Part shown: piece by piece, positions 276 to 61,504 of the stretch
Layout: each line of letters begins with the position of its first letter
How positions within the stretch are numbered: the first letter of the stretch is position 1
IMG/VR virus record: IMGVR_UViG_3300022074_000039
Coordinates: 1-61,504 of that record
DNA: 61,504 nucleotides
Strand: one strand, 5' to 3'
DNA from: a virus
Made by a program: the position numbers and the translations under genes
The notes under the pieces: model-generated
The model's database searches: none
What the model was told of the DNA's origin: nothing
The model's input: only the letters and a program-made list of their open reading frames with translations

Positions 276-365
276 ATGTGTCGGGGACTCATCCACCGTC
301 TTGAGTGGACAGCTCAACCATCAATCGGTTGCCCTACAAAGGTAAGGAATAAAATCGTTAAGTTC

Positions 366-373
366 CAAATTTA
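366..373 (-). promoter_or_regulatory. Putative -7 promoter box TAAATTTG (leftward)
   Basis: The minus-strand octamer matches the Bacteroidetes -7 consensus TAnnTTTG and sits after a small hairpin (AACTC/GAGTT) and an A-run. The same arrangement occurs at 1870-1877 and 58649-58656. It lies just downstream of the 86-residue gene and upstream of the structured RNA, so it may drive that RNA. No -33 TTG is seen at the right distance. Confidence 0.4.
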
Positions 374-384
374 TTTTTGTAACT

Positions 385-645
385 CTATGAGTTAGAGTCG
401 TTTACAACCACCCCATCGACCTGATGAGAGTAGCACCAATGACCATCGTCAAGTGTGAGTACGTAGTTGTCTTGTAGGTGTAACACCTCATCCACTTCGT
501 TTCCGTATTTCTCGCTTGGATGGTAGGTTTTTTCGATGGCTACAACGCCTGCTACGGTTCTAGCGTCACGCCCAAATCCTCCGCGATACACGACTTTAGT
601 GCCTATGCGGATTGGTAATCGTTCGTTCAAAAATTTTGTTTTCAT
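385..645 (-). CDS. Hypothetical small early protein (86 aa)
   Basis: Function not recognised. The protein (start MKTKFLNERLPI) has the look of a small beta-barrel fold: a short strand-rich segment around VVYRGGFGRDARTVAGVV, then a stretch ending in LTLDDGHWCYSHQVDGV. The ATG at 645 is chosen because it lies just after the stop of the 38-residue gene upstream; the open frame extends further but that extension only mirrors the neighbour. The right-end copy (58668-58928) differs at several residues (K to Q, D to N, a changed C-terminus) while staying in frame, showing that it is a real gene under protein-level constraint. Confidence 0.75.
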   Translation of the reverse strand: MKTKFLNERLPIRIGTKVVYRGGFGRDARTVAGVVAIEKTYHPSEKYGNEVDEVLHLQDNYVLTLDDGHWCYSHQVDGVVVNDSNS

Positions 646-646
646 C

Positions 647-763
647 TTAGATGTCGTTTTCATATTCATATGCTCGGTCTGCTTCTTCCATGATGTCATA
701 CTCATATGCATCATCGTCATCGCTTGGGTAGTCATACCCCTCTCGCCATCGAGTCAATTTCAT
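647..763 (-). CDS. Hypothetical acidic micro-protein (38 aa)
   Basis: A short frame starting MKLTRWREGYDYPSDDDD and ending in YENDI, rich in Asp, Glu and Tyr. It overlaps the end of the upstream 65-residue gene and ends immediately before the ATG of the 86-residue gene. The right copy (58930-59046) keeps the frame despite several substitutions and even uses a different stop codon, supporting that it is translated. Function unknown; small acidic early phage proteins often bind host proteins, but nothing here proves that. Confidence 0.65.
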   Translation of the reverse strand: MKLTRWREGYDYPSDDDDAYEYDIMEEADRAYEYENDI

Positions 764-929
764 TGTCTCTGATTATAGTTAGGTCAAAACGTGTTCCCTT
801 GAAAGCATCCTCCAATATCTTGGAGTTACCGCCATCGGCTTGCATATATGCGCAGATCAATGCGTTTTCGAATCCGCCACACGTCTTGCGCCGTTCGTAC
901 AAGGCGTCGATTTGTTCTTGAGTTTTCAT
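732..929 (-). CDS. Hypothetical early protein (65 aa)
   Basis: Starts MKTQEQIDALYERRKTCGG, helical at the N-terminus, with the central segment ALICAYMQADGGNSKILED. Function not recognised. Its start overlaps the stop of the 50-residue gene (ATGA), and its 3' end overlaps the 38-residue gene by about 30 bases. In the right copy the same gene ends six codons earlier at a TGA, so its last residues here (SMARGV) are not conserved and probably dispensable. Confidence 0.7.
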   Translation of the reverse strand: MKTQEQIDALYERRKTCGGFENALICAYMQADGGNSKILEDAFKGTRFDLTIIRDNEIDSMARGV

Positions 930-1078
930 TGTATTGAGTAGTTAACAAGGTTAATATTCGTTTTGTTTGAGAATGCTTCTGCGACTAAGGCACAGCCCCC
1001 GTAATCACGAGTATCTGTGAAGTATGCATATGCATCAATGAGTTCGGGAATCGTGAACTCCATAAAGTGGTTTATCAT
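926..1078 (-). CDS. Hypothetical early protein (50 aa)
   Basis: A frame of 50 codons from ATG at 1078 (MINHFMEFTIPELIDAYAYF) to a TGA that overlaps the next ATG in an ATGA junction. The composition is protein-like and the tight coupling on both sides supports expression in the leftward early operon. Function not recognised. Identical in the right copy at 59209-59361. Confidence 0.65.
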   Translation of the reverse strand: MINHFMEFTIPELIDAYAYFTDTRDYGGCALVAEAFSNKTNINLVNYSIQ

Positions 1079-1089
1079 CGTGTTAGGCG

Positions 1090-1485
1090 TTAGCAGTACA
1101 TTACTTCTCCGAAGAGCGACAGCTGAAGGAATACGTCTGCCGTAGTGGCATCGTCATTCTCCTGAATCAAATCATCGAGATGATGGGGGTAATCGTTAGC
1201 CATCAGTTGCATTGCCTTACACATGGAGTCCCAATTCAAGGGATAAACACCATCGGAGAACTCATCGGCTATCAGCACTTGGTGCTTTGCGTTACCCCTT
1301 AGGTATGCAAACACCTGAGGCTCCCAACATTCGGGAATATCCAAGTCAGCCAACGCTTCGGGGTTCTCTTTAGCCCACTTGTAGGCTTTTTCAAGTTCAC
1401 CGTCGAGGGCGGTGTAGTCACGGTATGATGCATTACACATCATGTTAAGCATATGCGTATCGGGGATTTCAACAGTCAATTTCAT
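1090..1485 (-). CDS. Hypothetical early protein (131 aa)
   Basis: The ATG at 1485 (MKLTVEIPDTHML) overlaps the stop of the 104-residue gene in an ATGA junction and is preferred over a longer frame whose extra N-terminus is only the antisense-like continuation of the neighbour. The protein is acidic, with helical segments such as LEKAYKWAKENPEALADLDI and a C-terminus with NDDATTADVFLQLSL. I do not recognise a family. Identical to the right copy 59373-59768. Confidence 0.7.
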   Translation of the reverse strand: MKLTVEIPDTHMLNMMCNASYRDYTALDGELEKAYKWAKENPEALADLDIPECWEPQVFAYLRGNAKHQVLIADEFSDGVYPLNWDSMCKAMQLMANDYPHHLDDLIQENDDATTADVFLQLSLFGEVMYC

Positions 1486-1796
1486 TTGATTGGGATTTCG
1501 AAGTTTGGAACGCCTAAGGTGTAGCCTTGGCGTGAGTCGTGGAGAATGAGCATCGGATGGATGTCGATGGGATTGCCATCGCCCCAAACGTCGATGCCCT
1601 CTCCAATCACACCTTTTTCTTGTAGGTATGTATATGCTTGTGTCAGGATATTGCCTGTCGCATAATCGTAAGGCAAGAACTTGGTGACGTTGTTACGTTC
1701 ATCCTTGATTCTAACCCTTGCACCTCTGGTGTTAGTCGGACCGTAGAACTGAACGTGTATGGAACGGAGTCGGGGGATTGAAGCATTAAAAGGCAT
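1482..1796 (-). CDS. Hypothetical early protein (104 aa)
   Basis: Starts MPFNASIPRLRSIHVQFYG, followed by a strand-rich segment GARVRIKDERNNVTKFLPYDYA; likely a small alpha/beta protein. Function not recognised. The leader immediately before its ATG (CAATCAAAATCTTTAACACT) is nearly the same as that before the gene at 58588 and similar to those before 57976, 57824 and 3465, suggesting shared translation or regulatory signals for early genes. Downstream coupling by ATGA to the 131-residue gene. Confidence 0.7.
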   Translation of the reverse strand: MPFNASIPRLRSIHVQFYGPTNTRGARVRIKDERNNVTKFLPYDYATGNILTQAYTYLQEKGVIGEGIDVWGDGNPIDIHPMLILHDSRQGYTLGVPNFEIPIK

Positions 1797-1869
1797 AGTG
1801 TTAAAGATTTTGATTGGACAGCGTCGTTGCTGTCGCGTTAATAAGTTAAGGATGAAAATTCGGAACTTC

Positions 1870-1877
1870 CAAATTTA
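1870..1877 (-). promoter_or_regulatory. Putative -7 promoter box TAAATTTG (leftward)
   Basis: Second occurrence of the minus-strand pattern small hairpin (ACCC ATA GGGT), A-run, TAAATTTGGAA. It lies in the gap between the DUF7178-like gene and the 104-residue gene and could start an internal early transcript. No -33 TTG is visible at 19-21 bases. Confidence 0.4.
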
Positions 1878-1882
1878 TTTTT

Positions 1883-2509
1883 TTACCCTATGGGTATCGA
1901 TTCGGTTTTTAGCCATCGGTTACGCATCACGACCCATACGATGGCCTGAAGCTCGTAAGGCTTATAATCAAGGCGTAACGCGACATTCACGAAGTGAGTT
2001 TGGAATCGGTCGTACTGCTTTAGGGTGAAGGTCTCAGGCGTTTTCCTTGGCTTCAACGAAGTTGTGCTGAAGGCTCTTGCCATCCACTTGTCAAGCGTTA
2101 CGACTGACTCGTCACGATCCCCCACGTTTAACGCAAAGGCATACGTCTTAGGCGAGTCCTTGGTGATGGATACAGCTCCACCACGAATACCCCAAGCCCT
2201 GACCTTGTTAGCGTTGTAAGTGCAAACCTTGAAGTCGTCAAGCGTCAGGCCATCTGCATATGCCTGACACAAAGTCCAAGCGTCAACCTTGTTGCGAGGC
2301 CACTTGTTGTTTGGTGATAATGCCGAGATGATAGCGGCGGCCATTACTCTGGTAATGCTGAAATCATCTGACAGCAACTGAGCAAAGGCCATCGCGTCAT
2401 CGTACCACTCGATTCCATCGCGTAACTCCTGAGGCGTGGCTCGCCTTAGGTGTACTGCAATGCGCTTCGTGGCATCGTTGAGTTTGATGTTTGAGATTGA
2501 TGTTACCAT
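1883..2509 (-). CDS. DUF7178-like phage protein
   Basis: A 208-residue protein from the ATG at 2509 (MVTSISNIKLND); an in-frame ATG eight codons earlier overlaps the terminator region and is less likely. It has the pattern AAIISALSPNNKWPRN..DA, a middle YNANKVRAW segment and a VTLDKWMARAF segment, which resembles the phage family DUF7178, found in many phages and thought to have a helical DNA-glycosylase-like fold. No biochemical role is established. It sits in the early operon just after a terminator, suggesting dampened expression relative to the upstream two genes. The family assignment is from memory of sequence patterns, not a search. Confidence 0.7.
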   Translation of the reverse strand: MVTSISNIKLNDATKRIAVHLRRATPQELRDGIEWYDDAMAFAQLLSDDFSITRVMAAAIISALSPNNKWPRNKVDAWTLCQAYADGLTLDDFKVCTYNANKVRAWGIRGGAVSITKDSPKTYAFALNVGDRDESVVTLDKWMARAFSTTSLKPRKTPETFTLKQYDRFQTHFVNVALRLDYKPYELQAIVWVVMRNRWLKTESIPIG

Positions 2510-2531
2510 GTTATGGTGATTTAATGGCAAC

Positions 2532-2558
2532 AAAAAAGCACTCCGTAGAGCGCCTTTT
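2532..2558 (-). terminator. Rho-independent terminator (leftward)
   Basis: Read on the minus strand, GGCGCTC-TACG-GAGTGCT is followed by six Ts. The stem is continuous only in minus-strand RNA, because two pairs are G:U there but A:C mismatches on the plus strand, so it acts leftward. It separates the 51-residue and K/A/P-rich genes from the DUF7178-like gene. Confidence 0.75.
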
Positions 2559-2584
2559 CGTGTGCCGTGTTATACATATACGCC

Positions 2585-2740
2585 TTACTCGTCTTCTAGA
2601 TGTTCATTGAGCAAATCAATAGCACCTTGGACTGCTTCGTCATCTTGACTGAAGAATTTTGAACTGCTGTCTAAGTTGAACAATTGGAATTCTTCCAATT
2701 TATCAACTAACTGCTGAATTTGTTCTTTTGATAATTGCAT
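2585..2740 (-). CDS. Hypothetical early protein (51 aa)
   Basis: A 51-codon frame starting MQLSKEQIQQLVDKLEEFQ and ending in LLNEHLEDE; strongly helical and acidic, with a heptad-like N-terminus that could form a coiled coil. It follows the K/A/P-rich gene in the first early transcript and precedes a terminator. Function not recognised. The right copy is identical. Confidence 0.65.
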   Translation of the reverse strand: MQLSKEQIQQLVDKLEEFQLFNLDSSSKFFSQDDEAVQGAIDLLNEHLEDE

Positions 2741-2778
2741 AGCAAAGAAATTTTTGAAGGTTTAATATTAATCTACGA

Positions 2779-3465
2779 TTAGAAATTCAATTCGATTTGA
2801 CCTGTTGTTTCATCCGTGTTGATTGACGCTAACAACTCCGCTTCTAACGCCTCACGCTTGGCTTGCTGGATGGCTTGTCGTCGGACGGCATCCTGAGGTG
2901 ACTCCCCTTCGTTTAGGCTGAAAGCACATTCATTCGGAATCGAGCCGTTATGTTGCTTCTTTTGAGCAACCTTAGCAGCCTTGGCTGCCGCATTACGCTT
3001 ACCAAGGCTTTCAACAGCCTTCCTCGCCTTAGGCACTGAGGCCGTCTTACGCTTCGACTTGGTGATGGGGCCGACCTCCTTCGGTTGGCGCTTCATCTCA
3101 TCGGAATCGGCGACAATCTCAGAAGGGGTACGTTTGGTTGACGTGGCCTTCTTCGCCTTACGCTTCGCCTTACGCTTGGCTTTCGGTTTCGGCTCGGCTT
3201 CCGTAGGGATTTGAACCAAACCCTGCTCGACAAGGAACTCGACAACAGCCTCCAAATCCACAGGAACTGAAGGTGCGGATTTCGCCTTAGGCTTCGCGGC
3301 CTTCGGCTTGGGTTGCTCCATGAACTTGACATAGTTCCATAGGGCGTTGATAGCTTTCAAGGCCTCGTCCTTCCTACCCTTGGTAGGATTGAAGGCGACT
3401 TTGTTGACTGACTTGGTTACTTCCTGAAGTAACTGTACACGGTTGGGTTGCTTGGCGTTTGCCAT
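2779..3465 (-). CDS. K/A/P-rich basic protein, probably DNA-binding
   Basis: A 228-residue protein from ATG at 3465 (MANAKQPNRVQLLQ). After a helical N-terminal domain of about 60 residues come low-complexity tracts of Lys, Ala and Pro around residues 60-130 (PKPKAKRKAKRKAKK), resembling histone H1-like or HU tails, then a second basic KR-rich segment and an acidic C-terminus. It is the first gene after the leftward promoter at 3510-3541. I infer nucleic-acid binding, perhaps in host takeover or genome organisation; no enzymatic motif is seen. Its leader contains the early-gene motif TCAAAATCTCTATGTC. The right copy is cut by the window end. Confidence 0.7.
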   Translation of the reverse strand: MANAKQPNRVQLLQEVTKSVNKVAFNPTKGRKDEALKAINALWNYVKFMEQPKPKAAKPKAKSAPSVPVDLEAVVEFLVEQGLVQIPTEAEPKPKAKRKAKRKAKKATSTKRTPSEIVADSDEMKRQPKEVGPITKSKRKTASVPKARKAVESLGKRNAAAKAAKVAQKKQHNGSIPNECAFSLNEGESPQDAVRRQAIQQAKREALEAELLASINTDETTGQIELNF

Positions 3466-4740: not shown

Positions 4741-5573
4741 AGCACATTAAGAAGCACGGTGGTATCCACACCATGAAAAAAGGAGGTATGTATGACGCCA
4801 TCATGAAGTTCATGGGTGGTGGCAACATGGAATACATGCAGGAAGGTGGTAAGCCCGATTTTTTGGACCTAGACAAAGACGGTAACAAGACAGAATCCAT
4901 GAAGTCTGCCGCTGCTTCTGCTAAGGAGATGGGTAAGGGTGGCCGCATGTACAGAATGGGTGGTATGAATGAGATGGGCCACGGAGGCGTACACAAGTAC
5001 CCACATGGTGGCGTTCATAACGACGATTCTTCTTCAGATATTCAAGTCATGGCTAAGGACAGCTATAAAACAGCTGATGATCCTCAACCAGGAAGAGACT
5101 TCATATATTTGGTAGATGGACAGCCTACTGATTTCACTCACTCCGACATAGCTAACTTGCTTCAGTCTGAAGGTATTACTGGAAAAAACCTGAACACCAG
5201 AATGAGCGAACTCTTCACTAGCTTTCCCTCAAGAGGTGGAAGCGTCGAAGAGGAGAGAGCTTTCAGGAAAAGACAGATGGACAAGGTTTTGAAAGATGTG
5301 GAGAGTATCGCCTTGGCTGAGAAACGTGTTGAAGGCGGAGGGCAGTACATAGCACCCACAATGGGAACGGGAGCAATGGGTAAGGTAGGACTGGGTAGAT
5401 TAATAAAAAGTGTTCGAAGAGGAGATGAGGCCAAGGCTACTGACGTTGGATTCATGTCCAATGAGGATCAAATGAAAATGACGAAGCTTGGGGAAATGCA
5501 AGAAGGAACCCCCAAGAATGTCAATACCGACGAATTCTTGAGGGCCCTTGCTCGAAACTTTCGAGGAAGTTAA
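4737..5573 (+). CDS. Gly/Met/His-rich phage protein with KYPHGGVH motif
   Basis: A 278-residue protein. The first ~95 residues are very rich in Gly, Met, His and Lys with repeated GG-containing units (KKHGGIH, KKGGMYD, GHGGVHKYPHGGVH), plus an acidic loop-like DLDKDGNKTES segment (residues ~42-53) followed by SAAASAKEMGKGG, a motif seen in marine phage proteins. The rest is helical. The same KYPHGGVH motif opens the protein at 48724. Function unknown; position with endolysin and small basic proteins suggests a virion-associated or morphogenesis role. Its stop overlaps the stop of the convergent gene at 5570 (TTAA). Confidence 0.6.
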   Translation: MKHIKKHGGIHTMKKGGMYDAIMKFMGGGNMEYMQEGGKPDFLDLDKDGNKTESMKSAAASAKEMGKGGRMYRMGGMNEMGHGGVHKYPHGGVHNDDSSSDIQVMAKDSYKTADDPQPGRDFIYLVDGQPTDFTHSDIANLLQSEGITGKNLNTRMSELFTSFPSRGGSVEEERAFRKRQMDKVLKDVESIALAEKRVEGGGQYIAPTMGTGAMGKVGLGRLIKSVRRGDEAKATDVGFMSNEDQMKMTKLGEMQEGTPKNVNTDEFLRALARNFRGS

Positions 5574-8071: not shown

Positions 8072-8656
8072 ATGAAAACATTCAATTTGTTTATTGTCGA
8101 GTTAGAGAAGACAGTAAACGACACCATCACAACGTCTGGTGGTTTAGAGTTATACATAGACAATAGATTCAATGAGTTTGAAAACAGAGTTACAGAAGGC
8201 CCTGTCGTGGCTGTCCCGTTCAAGTACGAAACTTGCGTCGAGCCTGGCGACACGCTTTACTTCCATCACCTCGTGGTTGTCAACGAAGGTCAGCCACTTA
8301 CTGGTAATGATAATCACTACCTTGTCAGGTACGATGAAGACCACGCTATCAATAATCAAGCTATTGCTTTTAAAAGTAGCAGTACTGGGGCTATCTATCC
8401 TCTTGCGGGTTGGAGCCTTCTTGAACCCGTCGAAGAAGAGAAAGTTCAAAAATCGGAACTTATCGAAGTTGTCAAACTTAAGCAGAAACCAACAACAAGA
8501 GGTAGAGTCGCATTTACGTCTCCTGGGGTTGAAGCGCTAGGCTTGGAGGTTGGTGACGTAGTTGGCTTCAAAGAAAACAGAGACTATCGGATTAGGATAG
8601 ACGGCAAGGAATACTACAGAACCCGCACTGAAGACCTTATGTATGTTGAAAGATAA
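8072..8656 (+). CDS. Tandem GroES-like co-chaperonin
   Basis: A 194-residue protein with two GroES-like halves. The second (residues ~130-194) is the clearer: ALGLEVGDVVGFKENRDYRI, then RIDGKEYYRTRTEDLMYVER, the GroES signature of a GD-V-F loop, a KI-DG-EY strand and a final R-ED-M/I strand. The first half shows NRVTEGPVVAVPF, EPGDTLYFHHLVVV and YLVRYDEDHAI. Phage co-chaperonins such as T4 gp31 replace host GroES so that GroEL can fold the capsid protein; this protein likely serves that purpose. Normal GroES is about 95 residues, so this is a doubled or extended form. Confidence 0.75.
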   Translation: MKTFNLFIVELEKTVNDTITTSGGLELYIDNRFNEFENRVTEGPVVAVPFKYETCVEPGDTLYFHHLVVVNEGQPLTGNDNHYLVRYDEDHAINNQAIAFKSSSTGAIYPLAGWSLLEPVEEEKVQKSELIEVVKLKQKPTTRGRVAFTSPGVEALGLEVGDVVGFKENRDYRIRIDGKEYYRTRTEDLMYVER

Positions 8657-9336: not shown

Positions 9337-9408
9337 GCTCTCTTAGCTCAGCGGTAGAGCAGCGAACTCATAATTCGTAGGCCATTGGTTCGAATCCAAT
9401 AGGGAGCA
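9337..9408 (+). tRNA. tRNA with CAT anticodon (Met/fMet or Ile2)
   Basis: Full cloverleaf: acceptor GCTCTCT/AGGGAGC (one G:T), D arm with GCTC...GAGC, anticodon stem GCGAA/TTCGT with loop CTCATAA (anticodon CAT at 9369-9371), T loop TTCGAAT, discriminator A at 9408. CCA is not encoded. Which amino acid (Met, initiator Met, or Ile with modified C34) cannot be decided from sequence alone. Confidence 0.92.
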
Positions 9409-9412
9409 CACG

Positions 9413-9757
9413 GTGCCATACAAAGACAAAAAAGATCAGGCTAATGCGGCAGCTAAACACTACCGAGAAAACAAGGGGAAAATAATCTCTAGAAGCTCTG
9501 CTAGAAACAAAAGGCAAAGAAAGAAAAACAAAGCATTTGTAGACCGAGTAAAAAGAATGTTTAACTGTGTGGACTGCGGGGAGTCAGATCCAGTAGTTCT
9601 TGATTTTGATCACGTAAAAGGGGAAAAGAAAAAAGCGATAGCTGATATGGTTTCTAACTACTACAGCATAAAAACAATAAAGGAAGAAATGAGGAAGTGT
9701 GAAATAAGATGTGCAAATTGTCATCGGAAAAAAACACATGAAAGAATGCACTCGTAG
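9413..9757 (+). CDS. HNH homing-type endonuclease between two tRNAs
   Basis: A 114-residue basic protein with a zinc-ribbon HNH motif: Cys52-x2-Cys55 (NCVDCGESD), the catalytic LDFDHVKG (Asp66-His67) and Cys100-x2-Cys103-His104 (RCANCHRKKTH). It nicks or cuts DNA and is typical of mobile phage endonucleases. The start is GTG at 9413, four bases after the first tRNA; the stop TAG lies inside the second tRNA acceptor stem. The insertion between tRNAs suggests tRNA-linked mobility. Confidence 0.88.
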   Translation: MPYKDKKDQANAAAKHYRENKGKIISRSSARNKRQRKKNKAFVDRVKRMFNCVDCGESDPVVLDFDHVKGEKKKAIADMVSNYYSIKTIKEEMRKCEIRCANCHRKKTHERMHS

Positions 9758-9821
9758 CTCAGTTGGATAGAGCATCTGCCTTCTAAGCAGACGGTCACAG
9801 GTTCGAATCCTGTCGGGTGTA
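9748..9821 (+). tRNA. tRNA-Arg (anticodon TCT)
   Basis: Acceptor GCACTCG/CGGGTGT (two G:T pairs), D arm GCTC...GAGC, anticodon stem TCTGC/GCAGA with loop CTTCTAA (anticodon TCT at 9782-9784, reads AGA), T loop TTCGAAT, discriminator A at 9821. AGA codons are common in these genes, so the tRNA may supplement host decoding. The first ten bases overlap the HNH coding end. Confidence 0.93.
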
Positions 9822-9834
9822 CAAATTAAATTCA

Positions 9835-57976: not shown

Positions 57977-58129
57977 GTGTTAGAGTTTTGAGTTAATGTG
58001 GTCGGCTTTGTTTATCCCTTCTATCCACGCCACGCAGAGTTTCTCTCTCGTAGGTGCAAGCCTCATGATTCCATAGCTTACACCACAGGTAATGGTCTTC
58101 CTGGTGATTTAACGTGTCGCTCAGTGGTT

Positions 58130-58340
58130 CAGGTATCGACTTAGCTCACCTACCTGATTTAATGGTGAGTACCGTTGTAGCGATAGTGGGAGTCGAACCC
58201 ACCTTCGGACTTGTCCGCCCCTCTGCCGAGGTTATCGAAGGCTACCTTTGAACCTTTCAGGTGAGTTAAACCCACCAAGACCTTCGAGGCGAATTGCTTC
58301 TGATGTCCATCCCTTGCGTTCATACAAGGACATTATCGCT
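58130..58340 (-). ncRNA. Structured tRNA-like RNA with 3' pseudoknot (right copy)
   Basis: Same RNA as 65-275, but with paired changes: hairpin CCTTG/CAAGG here versus CCCTG/CAGGG; pseudoknot stem 1 CTCACC/GGTGAG versus CCCACC/GGTGGG; stem 2 CAGGT/ACCTG versus CTGGT/ACCAG; outer stem ATGTCC/GGACAT here is perfect. Acceptor AGCGATA/TATCGCT unchanged; T loop TTCGACT also canonical. One base of loop 1 is missing here. This is direct evidence of a selected RNA fold. The central 100 bases are identical in both copies. Confidence 0.72.
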
Positions 58341-58348
58341 ATGTTTGA

Positions 58349-58588: not shown

Positions 58589-58648
58589 GTGTTAAAGATT
58601 TTGATTGCTGAATTGCCCCACAAAGATAAGGCAGAGTTTTCGTTATTC

Positions 58649-58656
58649 CAAATTTA
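58649..58656 (-). promoter_or_regulatory. Putative -7 box TAAATTTG (right copy)
   Basis: Counterpart of 366-373 with the same upstream hairpin and A-run, here before the 58588 gene and the structured RNA. Confidence 0.4.
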
Positions 58657-58667
58657 TTTTTGTAACT

Positions 58668-58928
58668 CTATGAGTTAGAGTCACTTACAGACACCCCATC
58701 GACCTGATGAGAGTAGCACCAATGACCATCGTCAAGTGTGAGTACGTAGTTGTCTTGTAGGTGTAACACCTCATCCACTTCGTTCCCGTACTTCTCGCTT
58801 GGATGGTAGGTTTGTTCGATGGCTACAACGCCTGCTACGGTTCTGGCGTTACGCCCAAAGCCTCCGCGATACACGACTTTAGTGCCTATGCGGATTGGTA
58901 ATCGTTCGTTCAAAAATTGTGTTTTCAT
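58668..58928 (-). CDS. Hypothetical small early protein (86 aa), right copy
   Basis: Allele of 385-645 beginning MKTQFLNERLPIRIGTKVVY, with K-to-Q, D-to-N and changed C-terminal residues (GVSVSDSNS). The frame is kept and substitutions are scattered, as in a natural variant. Confidence 0.75.
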   Translation of the reverse strand: MKTQFLNERLPIRIGTKVVYRGGFGRNARTVAGVVAIEQTYHPSEKYGNEVDEVLHLQDNYVLTLDDGHWCYSHQVDGVSVSDSNS

Positions 58929-58929
58929 T

Positions 58930-59046
58930 TCATATATCGTTTTCATATTCATATGCTCGGTCTGCTTCTTCCATGATGTCATACTCATATGCATCATCGT
59001 CATCGCTTGGGTAGTCATACCCTTCTCTCCATTCAGTCAATTTCAT
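58930..59046 (-). CDS. Hypothetical acidic micro-protein (38 aa), right copy
   Basis: Allele of 647-763, MKLTEWREGYDYPSDDDDAY; Arg5 is Glu here, and it ends with TGA overlapping the region just before the next ATG. Conservation of the frame supports translation. Confidence 0.65.
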   Translation of the reverse strand: MKLTEWREGYDYPSDDDDAYEYDIMEEADRAYEYENDI

Positions 59047-59212
59047 TGTCCCTGATTATAGTTAAGTCGAAACGTGTTCCCTTGAAAGCATCTTCCAATA
59101 TCTTGGAGTTGCCACCATCGGCTTGCATATATGCGCAGATCAATGCGTTTTCGAATCCGCCACACGTCTTACGCCGTTCGTATAAGGCGTTGATTTGTTC
59201 TTGAGTTTTCAT
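59033..59212 (-). CDS. Hypothetical early protein (59 aa), right copy
   Basis: Allele of 732-929 (MKTQEQINALYERRKTCGG), shorter by six residues because of an earlier TGA. N-terminal residue D8 is N. Unknown function. Confidence 0.68.
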   Translation of the reverse strand: MKTQEQINALYERRKTCGGFENALICAYMQADGGNSKILEDAFKGTRFDLTIIRDNEID

Positions 59213-59361
59213 TGTATTGAGTAGTTAACAAGGTTAATATTCGTTTTGTTTGAGAATGCTTCTGCGACTAAGGCACAGCCCCCGTAATCACGAGTATCTG
59301 TGAAGTATGCATATGCATCAATGAGTTCGGGAATCGTGAACTCCATAAAGTGGTTTATCAT
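59209..59361 (-). CDS. Hypothetical early protein (50 aa), right copy
   Basis: Identical to 926-1078 by eye. ATGA overlap with the next gene is retained. Confidence 0.65.
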   Translation of the reverse strand: MINHFMEFTIPELIDAYAYFTDTRDYGGCALVAEAFSNKTNINLVNYSIQ

Positions 59362-59372
59362 CGTGTTAGGCG

Positions 59373-59768
59373 TTAGCAGTACATTACTTCTCCGAAGAGC
59401 GACAGCTGAAGGAATACGTCTGCCGTAGTGGCATCGTCATTCTCCTGAATCAAATCATCGAGATGATGGGGGTAATCGTTAGCCATCAGTTGCATTGCCT
59501 TACACATGGAGTCCCAATTCAAGGGATAAACACCATCGGAGAACTCATCGGCTATCAGCACTTGGTGCTTTGCGTTACCCCTTAGGTATGCAAACACCTG
59601 AGGCTCCCAACATTCGGGAATATCCAAGTCAGCCAACGCTTCGGGGTTCTCTTTAGCCCACTTGTAGGCTTTTTCAAGTTCACCGTCGAGGGCGGTGTAG
59701 TCACGGTATGATGCATTACACATCATGTTAAGCATATGCGTATCGGGGATTTCAACAGTCAATTTCAT
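59373..59768 (-). CDS. Hypothetical early protein (131 aa), right copy
   Basis: Identical to 1090-1485. Confidence 0.7.
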   Translation of the reverse strand: MKLTVEIPDTHMLNMMCNASYRDYTALDGELEKAYKWAKENPEALADLDIPECWEPQVFAYLRGNAKHQVLIADEFSDGVYPLNWDSMCKAMQLMANDYPHHLDDLIQENDDATTADVFLQLSLFGEVMYC

Positions 59769-60079
59769 TTGATTGGGATTTCGAAGTTTGGAACGCCTAA
59801 GGTGTAGCCTTGGCGTGAGTCGTGGAGAATGAGCATCGGATGGATGTCGATGGGATTGCCATCGCCCCAAACGTCGATGCCCTCTCCAATCACACCTTTT
59901 TCTTGTAGGTATGTATATGCTTGTGTCAGGATATTGCCTGTCGCATAATCGTAAGGCAAGAACTTGGTGACGTTGTTACGTTCATCCTTGATTCTAACCC
60001 TTGCACCTCTGGTGTTAGTCGGACCGTAGAACTGAACGTGTATGGAACGGAGTCGGGGGATTGAAGCATTAAAAGGCAT
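59765..60079 (-). CDS. Hypothetical early protein (104 aa), right copy
   Basis: Identical to 1482-1796, including the CAATCAAAATCTTTAACAC leader. Confidence 0.7.
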   Translation of the reverse strand: MPFNASIPRLRSIHVQFYGPTNTRGARVRIKDERNNVTKFLPYDYATGNILTQAYTYLQEKGVIGEGIDVWGDGNPIDIHPMLILHDSRQGYTLGVPNFEIPIK

Positions 60080-60152
60080 AGTGTTAAAGATTTTGATTGG
60101 ACAGCGTCGTTGCTGTCGCGTTAATAAGTTAAGGATGAAAATTCGGAACTTC

Positions 60153-60160
60153 CAAATTTA
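60153..60160 (-). promoter_or_regulatory. Putative -7 box TAAATTTG (right copy)
   Basis: Counterpart of 1870-1877. Confidence 0.4.
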
Positions 60161-60165
60161 TTTTT

Positions 60166-60792
60166 TTACCCTATGGGTATCGATTCGGTTTTTAGCCATC
60201 GGTTACGCATCACGACCCATACGATGGCCTGAAGCTCGTAAGGCTTATAATCAAGGCGTAACGCGACATTCACGAAGTGAGTTTGGAATCGGTCGTACTG
60301 CTTTAGGGTGAAGGTCTCAGGCGTTTTCCTTGGCTTCAACGAAGTTGTGCTGAAGGCTCTTGCCATCCACTTGTCAAGCGTTACGACTGACTCGTCACGA
60401 TCCCCCACGTTTAACGCAAAGGCATACGTCTTAGGCGAGTCCTTGGTGATGGATACAGCTCCACCACGAATACCCCAAGCCCTGACCTTGTTAGCGTTGT
60501 AAGTGCAAACCTTGAAGTCGTCAAGCGTCAGGCCATCTGCATATGCCTGACACAAAGTCCAAGCGTCAACCTTGTTGCGAGGCCACTTGTTGTTTGGTGA
60601 TAATGCCGAGATGATAGCGGCGGCCATTACTCTGGTAATGCTGAAATCATCTGACAGCAACTGAGCAAAGGCCATCGCGTCATCGTACCACTCGATTCCA
60701 TCGCGTAACTCCTGAGGCGTGGCTCGCCTTAGGTGTACTGCAATGCGCTTCGTGGCATCGTTGAGTTTGATGTTTGAGATTGATGTTACCAT
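60166..60792 (-). CDS. DUF7178-like phage protein, right copy
   Basis: Identical to 1883-2509. Confidence 0.7.
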   Translation of the reverse strand: MVTSISNIKLNDATKRIAVHLRRATPQELRDGIEWYDDAMAFAQLLSDDFSITRVMAAAIISALSPNNKWPRNKVDAWTLCQAYADGLTLDDFKVCTYNANKVRAWGIRGGAVSITKDSPKTYAFALNVGDRDESVVTLDKWMARAFSTTSLKPRKTPETFTLKQYDRFQTHFVNVALRLDYKPYELQAIVWVVMRNRWLKTESIPIG

Positions 60793-60814
60793 GTTATGGT
60801 GATTTAATGGCAAC

Positions 60815-60841
60815 AAAAAAGCACTCCGTAGAGCGCCTTTT
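60815..60841 (-). terminator. Rho-independent terminator (leftward), right copy
   Basis: Counterpart of 2532-2558. Confidence 0.75.
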
Positions 60842-60867
60842 CGTGTGCCGTGTTATACATATACGCC

Positions 60868-61023
60868 TTACTCGTCTTCTAGATGTTCATTGAGCAAATC
60901 AATAGCACCTTGGACTGCTTCGTCATCTTGACTGAAGAATTTTGAACTGCTGTCTAAGTTGAACAATTGGAATTCTTCCAATTTATCAACTAACTGCTGA
61001 ATTTGTTCTTTTGATAATTGCAT
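60868..61023 (-). CDS. Hypothetical early protein (51 aa), right copy
   Basis: Identical to 2585-2740. Confidence 0.65.
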   Translation of the reverse strand: MQLSKEQIQQLVDKLEEFQLFNLDSSSKFFSQDDEAVQGAIDLLNEHLEDE

Positions 61024-61061
61024 AGCAAAGAAATTTTTGAAGGTTTAATATTAATCTACGA

Positions 61062-61504
61062 TTAGAAATTCAATTCGATTTGACCTGTTGTTTCATCCGT
61101 GTTGATTGACGCTAACAACTCCGCTTCTAACGCCTCACGCTTGGCTTGCTGGATGGCTTGTCGTCGGACGGCATCCTGAGGTGACTCCCCTTCGTTTAGG
61201 CTGAAAGCACATTCATTCGGAATCGAGCCGTTATGTTGCTTCTTTTGAGCAACCTTAGCAGCCTTGGCTGCCGCATTACGCTTACCAAGGCTTTCAACAG
61301 CCTTCCTCGCCTTAGGCACTGAGGCCGTCTTACGCTTCGACTTGGTGATGGGGCCGACCTCCTTCGGTTGGCGCTTCATCTCATCGGAATCGGCGACAAT
61401 CTCAGAAGGGGTACGTTTGGTTGACGTGGCCTTCTTCGCCTTACGCTTCGCCTTACGCTTGGCTTTCGGTTTCGGCTCGGCTTCCGTAGGGATTTGAACC
61501 AAAC
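61062..61504 (-). CDS. K/A/P-rich basic protein, right copy, cut by window end
   Basis: The C-terminal ~147 residues of the 2779-3465 protein; the N-terminus lies beyond the window end. The truncation reflects the sequence end, not a mutation. Confidence 0.75.
   Translation of the reverse strand, partial: LVQIPTEAEPKPKAKRKAKRKAKKATSTKRTPSEIVADSDEMKRQPKEVGPITKSKRKTASVPKARKAVESLGKRNAAAKAAKVAQKKQHNGSIPNECAFSLNEGESPQDAVRRQAIQQAKREALEAELLASINTDETTGQIELNF

Follow-up and report, generated by a model that had tools for sequence, protein, structure and literature searches.

Enzymes that mature tRNAs, namely RNase P, RNase Z and the CCA-adding enzymes, recognise the acceptor stem, the T arm and the elbow (PMC4919922, PMC4477674). 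RNase P and RNase Z also excise the members of the mascRNA/menRNA family (RF01684), found at the 3' ends of animal lncRNAs (PMC4919922). The t-elements of plant mitochondria, which are organellar and derive from recognisable tRNA genes, are tRNA-like structures at mRNA ends that are cut by the same two enzymes, CCA-tailed and not aminoacylated (PMC11658184, PMC8003010). The tRNA-like ends of MALAT1 and MEN-beta, together with the t-elements, are RNAs of this shape that are cut out, set the ends of mRNAs and remain uncharged (PMC4919922, PMC11658184, PMC8003010). Among phages, T4 RNA C (rnaC, species 1 RNA) was detected as a discrete RNA by Northern blot (PMC9697503) and is a single phage RNA of unknown function (PMC9697503, PMC3014915). 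T4 RNA C excepted, I found no description of anticodon-less tRNAs in phages in a literature search mostly of papers outside subscription; no Rfam family covers the RNAs reported here, and an earlier description is possible.

The window, which is the whole stretch of DNA analysed and a 61504-base IMG/VR virus record, encodes such a tRNA-like RNA near its end. The isolates nearest to its TerL are phages of Flavobacterium, Cellulophaga and Maribacter, at identities below 60%, and its host is therefore probably a member of the Bacteroidota. The contig ends (1-3221 and 58066-61504) overlap at 95-99%, with 98.7% identity between 329-3221 and 58613-61504 and 94.6% between 1-279 and 58066-58344, and an indel gives the tail allele an extra 94-aa ORF. 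The map is circular and about 58.3 kb long, and the contig runs past its full length into a slightly different strain. The first-pass annotation had described two end copies of the RNA that differ at mutually pairing positions. The covarying differences stand, but because the contig ends overlap at 94.6-98.7% identity the head and tail copies represent one locus in two strain alleles, not two genes, and it is as alleles that their differences are informative. Elsewhere in the window, tRNA-Met and tRNA-Arg (9337-9409 and 9748-9822), which are retained in many relatives, lie just upstream of TerL, and a 194-aa ORF (8072-8656) with a GroES-like Cpn10 domain at its end is also upstream of TerL.

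The tRNA-like RNA of the window

The tail allele is a 163-nt RNA on the minus strand (58340-58178) with the complete acceptor stem and canonical T arm that had been claimed for it. The 5' acceptor strand, AGCGATA (58334-58340), is preceded by the leader ACAT, overlaps with its first bases the stop codon (TAG) that ends the upstream ORF, and forms a perfect 7-bp stem with the 3' strand TATCGCT (58179-58185), after which comes the discriminator A58178. The consensus T arm, GTGGG-TTCGACT-CCCAC (58186-58202), is separated from the 5' acceptor strand by 131 nt. These begin, directly after the acceptor, with a D-arm-like hairpin (58303-58333; stem ATGT/ACAT, inner hairpin CCTTG/CAAGG, loop end GATGG), whose loop contains a GG that is the putative G18G19 partner of the T loop. 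In place of the anticodon arm there follows a 100-nt multi-helix central domain (58203-58302) with the helices CGCC/GGCG, TCGAAGG/CCTTCGA, GGTGGG/CTCACC and CCTC/GAGG and an invariant stretch of 28 nt. The head allele of the same RNA occupies 113-275, also on the minus strand, position 113 being a C after the discriminator A114.

A scan for a 7-bp acceptor, a 5-bp T stem and a TTCRANT loop gave three matches in the window (both alleles and tRNA-Met) and none in 60 Markov-shuffled windows. The RNA forms a more favourable fold than shuffled versions do (z = -2.8). At minimum energy the head allele adopts the proposed structure, and in the tail allele the T arm pairs instead with the central GGTGGG hairpin. 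The alleles differ at paired positions in four helices, where at least three had been noted earlier: a U-A pair becomes C-G in both the D stem and the inner hairpin, and the remaining two helices are the stems of the adjoining pseudoknot (U-A to C-G in stem 1, A-U to U-A in stem 2).

Further members of the window family were found in viral contigs with a pattern taken from the invariant core. Across eight distinct sequences 99.4% of 352 cells are paired, against 39-56% for slid structures, and the homologues keep the acceptor (100% paired) and T-arm pairings. Three pairs change in a compensatory manner: they are located in the D stem, in the inner hairpin and in the stem that closes the central domain. 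The acceptor and T stem vary only via G-U. Since the sequences are few and related, covariation support for the predicted fold is good, though short of overwhelming. An intron-bearing type II tRNA, suggested by a variable-arm hairpin at GGACAAGTCC, was considered and rejected, as this hairpin is absent in L152 and L191 (L numbers are my handles for the phage sequences compared).

Like a tRNA (RF00005), the RNA has a consensus acceptor and T arm (TTCRANY loop) and a GG-containing first hairpin; unlike a tRNA, it does not form a cloverleaf with an anticodon arm and 7-nt loop. ARAGORN and Rfam at gathering thresholds report the two ordinary tRNAs of the window and nothing at this locus. No Rfam family matches the RNA at threshold, and a permissive Rfam search yields no tRNA match up to E = 5. 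BLAST against isolate phages gave short matches only, for example to the T arm of an Erwinia phage tRNA-Leu. These negative searches, and a multi-helix domain where the anticodon arm belongs, bear out the earlier view that this is not a normal tRNA. Having no anticodon, RNAs of this kind are skipped by tRNA finders, which leaves phage genomes annotated as empty at these places, and for the same reason the mimics would be unable to read codons.

The adjoining pseudoknot and the comparison with tmRNA

An H-type pseudoknot lies beside the RNA on the minus strand, at 58129-58169 in the tail allele (CTCACC/GGTGAG and TCAGGTA/TACCTGA) and, with approximate boundaries, at 64-105 in the head allele (CCCACC/GGTGGG and TCTGGTA/TACCAGG). 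The pseudoknot reported by the first-pass annotation is real and covaries, but I read its stems as 6 and 7 bp, the second having been given as 5, and its loops as 6-7, 0 and 9 nt. Its two crossing stems are 100% paired in five sequences, with three compensatory pairs, C-G/G-C and A-U/U-A among them. L083, L191 and L232 lack it after their window-type RNAs, and in L236 it follows a tRNA-like RNA of another kind. Since it occurs with other tRNA-like RNAs and is missing after some of the window type, the predicted pseudoknot is an independent neighbouring module and not a part of the tRNA-like RNA. A third conserved, structured stretch (AAATCACCAGGAAGACCATTACCTGTGGTGTAAGC...; 58028-58118, minus strand, boundaries approximate) lies downstream of the pseudoknot; in L017 and L242, too, it comes after tRNA-like RNAs. 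A further conserved element, ending GAGGGGCATAGCCCGCA, lies directly 5' of three different tRNAs or tRNA-like RNAs (L017 626, L085 2938, L235).

An acceptor and T arm without an anticodon, with a pseudoknot nearby, are shared with tmRNA (RF00023), and a mini-tmRNA had been among the earlier suggestions. A reduced tmRNA serving ribosome rescue is nevertheless scarcely credible. The sole permissive Rfam match (E <= 5) is to the 17-nt T arm of RF00023, at 12.3 bits against a cut-off of 47, and no full-length match was obtained; no tag-like frame was seen, judged by reading; and the pseudoknot is separable from the RNA and not obligatory. In addition, the window acceptor has C3-G70, not the G3-U70 pair of alanine.

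The shell in related phages

Relatives were gathered by helicase-primase and TerL. A scan for acceptor plus T arm over 2.1 Mb (window and relatives) gave 104 matches versus one in reversed sequence; many of these are ordinary tRNAs and about 20 distinct ones are not. The T-loop motif GGTTCRANTCC, which is absent from Flavobacterium phage elemoF, occurs at 107 sites in 51 relative genomes, where its reversed form has 14, and inspection of the surrounding regions added more tRNA-like elements. The relatives hold more than 30 distinct anticodon-less RNAs with an acceptor, a T arm and usually a GG-looped first hairpin, around bodies of 14 to 132 nt. Family A, the window type, has bodies of 130-132 nt, family B of 96-98 nt and family C, with GTGAGTG acceptors, of 62-85 nt, while family D consists of minis with bodies of 14-25 nt, which leave no room for an anticodon arm, and of the same shells with inserts. 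Single cases also exist outside families A-D. The start of family C, TCTGGATTCGG, presumably resembles the D domain of tmRNA, which I count in favour of a reduced tmRNA; the minis, on the other side, are too small for a tag.

The predicted fold of family B is the strongest covariation case. In its 11 sequences 16 of 44 pairs show compensatory changes (acceptor, inner hairpin and body), and 94% of cells are paired, versus 85% when shuffled and 40-49% in slid structures. A CTTCYACCC...TTATGGCAA domain is also conserved in this family. Not every member of the set has a perfect acceptor, and in family B a U-U mismatch at 6:67 is frequent. Over 982 kb, a family B covariance model recovers its own members first and then, at E 0.01-5, almost only other families, both window alleles included. 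These weak matches are singly not significant, and it is their coincidence with independently found elements that counts. Ordinary tRNAs also score weakly, as expected from the shared shell.

Across elements the first hairpin begins right after the acceptor, and GG stands at its loop end, as a D-loop/T-loop elbow needs, in 29 of 34 elements versus 12 expected from shuffled bodies, although the rows are not independent and families C and F fit the rule poorly. N73 among the 34 is A in 25, C in 8 and T in 1, and the leader is often ACAT or ACA. Many members lie at gene junctions on the coding strand. By gene calls that are crude, about half start no more than 14 nt from the upstream stop, and for several the next same-strand ATG comes 14-31 nt after their end. 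An anticodon-like arm with almost no D arm is found at L089 13251-13326 and L167 2470-2548 and in L187 and L200, and an ordinary tRNA lies nearby in some of these phages.

One shell can enclose different inserts: 17 nt in L137 and 41 nt in L083, or 21 nt in L017 and 50 nt in L146, the last two differing by a compensatory change in the acceptor. In L083 four different tRNA-like RNAs stand in a row. Could these RNAs be decayed tRNA genes or remnants of integration sites? Odd tRNAs, such as those with almost no D arm (L089, L167), do occur in these phages. However, the compensatory changes in acceptor and body argue for selection, several unrelated body types share one shell and the 5' acceptor strands are intact, so decay is disfavoured and highly improbable.

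The phage mimics resemble mascRNA and menRNA in combining an acceptor, a short D-like hairpin and a T arm without an anticodon. Three phage minis align end to end with RF01684 (model positions 1-56), the best at 24.1 bits versus a cut-off of 42.5; the search also matches ordinary tRNAs and, below the cut-off, 9 of 14 control genomes, and the likeness is therefore one of shape and not of membership. The window RNA itself has no RF01684 match. T4 RNA C is 139 nt long, its 3' T arm, CCGGG-TTCGAAT-CCCGG, lies beside an acceptor-like closing stem, and no anticodon is seen. Between it and a Karamvirus homologue an acceptor A-U becomes G-C and a T-stem G-C becomes U-A (compared by hand, two sequences). 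It differs from the window-type RNAs in having two U-U mismatches in the acceptor, a place within a tRNA gene cluster and an unrelated body. T4 RNA C has the same anticodon-less shell, an analogy that covers the shell only.

Proposed processing by tRNA enzymes and possible roles

The sequence, the conserved fold, the absence of an anticodon arm, the recurrence in many phages and the placement at gene junctions are directly supported. By analogy with the systems above, I propose, with a probability of roughly 60%, that the window RNA is an anticodon-less tRNA mimic in a phage transcript, which host tRNA enzymes process and which thereby marks mRNA ends and frees a stable RNA. The same processing is proposed because the like-shaped MALAT1 and MEN-beta ends and the t-elements are excised, define ends and escape charging; like the t-elements, the phage mimics are tRNA-like structures, many of them placed at gene junctions on the coding strand. 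A tRNA mimic using RNase P or the CCA-adding enzyme, or a new class of phage RNA, had been offered by the first-pass annotation, and the evidence favours that suggestion. The mimic would sit in an early phage transcript, where host tRNA-processing enzymes would read its acceptor/T-arm stack and D-loop/T-loop elbow. RNase P would cut between the leader ACAT and the acceptor, RNase Z would cut after the discriminator, and CCA might be added to the 3' end. Such cuts would give the upstream mRNA its 3' end and the downstream mRNA its 5' end, and would free a stable, non-decoding RNA, to which the swappable body could give a second task. If the RNAs are so processed, bacterial viruses cut mRNA by tRNA mimicry, which is best known so far from mitochondria and animal lncRNAs.

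The freed RNA might instead be the main product, the tRNA shell serving as a natural scaffold that lends stable ends to a functional body (an sRNA, a protein sponge or a regulator), with mRNA punctuation as a side effect. The 28-nt invariant stretch in the window-family body, the CTTCYACCC...TTATGGCAA domain of family B, the same shell with different inserts (L137/L083, L017/L146) and the discrete T4 RNA C on Northern blots (PMC9697503) all point this way. I consider it unlikely, if not strikingly so, and the minis, whose 14-25-nt bodies could hardly accommodate an effector, are kept all the same.

For marine Bacteroidota viruses, which carry intergenic copies of the tRNA end and elbow, marks for cutting and stable scaffolds, produced by the tRNA-processing enzymes of the host, are most likely the role of these copies. 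Whether the mimics form a general modular phage class, with shells, bodies of 14 to 130 nt and places at gene junctions, which punctuates mRNA via RNase P and RNase Z, displays effector RNAs and includes T4 RNA C, is a more tentative matter, and I would put it at clearly below even odds. If so, T4 RNA C, which has gone decades without an explanation, would belong to a modular class. Comparison within the element set gives a way into T4 RNA C, and the set is testable in cultured Cellulophaga and Maribacter phages.

In Cellulophaga phage phi38:1 the element lies at 20817-20679, between gp031 and gp030, and is conserved in phi40:1 and the Calle phages. It stands directly upstream of a PF01139 gene in phi38:1 (L260 20660-20835), and in Calle (L268 301-776) directly upstream of a gene annotated in Calle_1 as the tRNA-splicing ligase RtcB. 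This neighbour, and the occurrence of several distinct mimics as an array in a single phage (L083), would suit decoys that soak up host defence enzymes attacking or modifying tRNA ends or elbows. Such a role is nonetheless improbable: lacking an anticodon loop, the mimics would be useless against anticodon nucleases, no defence partner was found, and none of the 20 window proteins scanned with Pfam matches an RNA-repair family.

In Maribacter phage Panino the element (4941-5031) begins 9 nt after CDS0022 and ends about 22 nt before CDS0023. Part of it recurs in phi14:2 (Crassvirales) with weaker acceptor pairing, and a pattern made from the Panino/phi14:2 element matched one contig only. Unannotated tRNA-like stretches are also seen in Klebsiella phage Sugarland (L267 706-824; a 7-bp acceptor, an 88-nt body and two T-arm-like hairpins), the 3' part of which recurs in several Klebsiella phages, and, as a mini element with a 32-nt body, in Vibrio phage 150E35-1 (L269 764-826). 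Podoviridae sp. ctfjg026 (MW202828; L262 637-698) has a 62-nt mini with the acceptor AGCAGAG/CTCAGCT and one mismatch.
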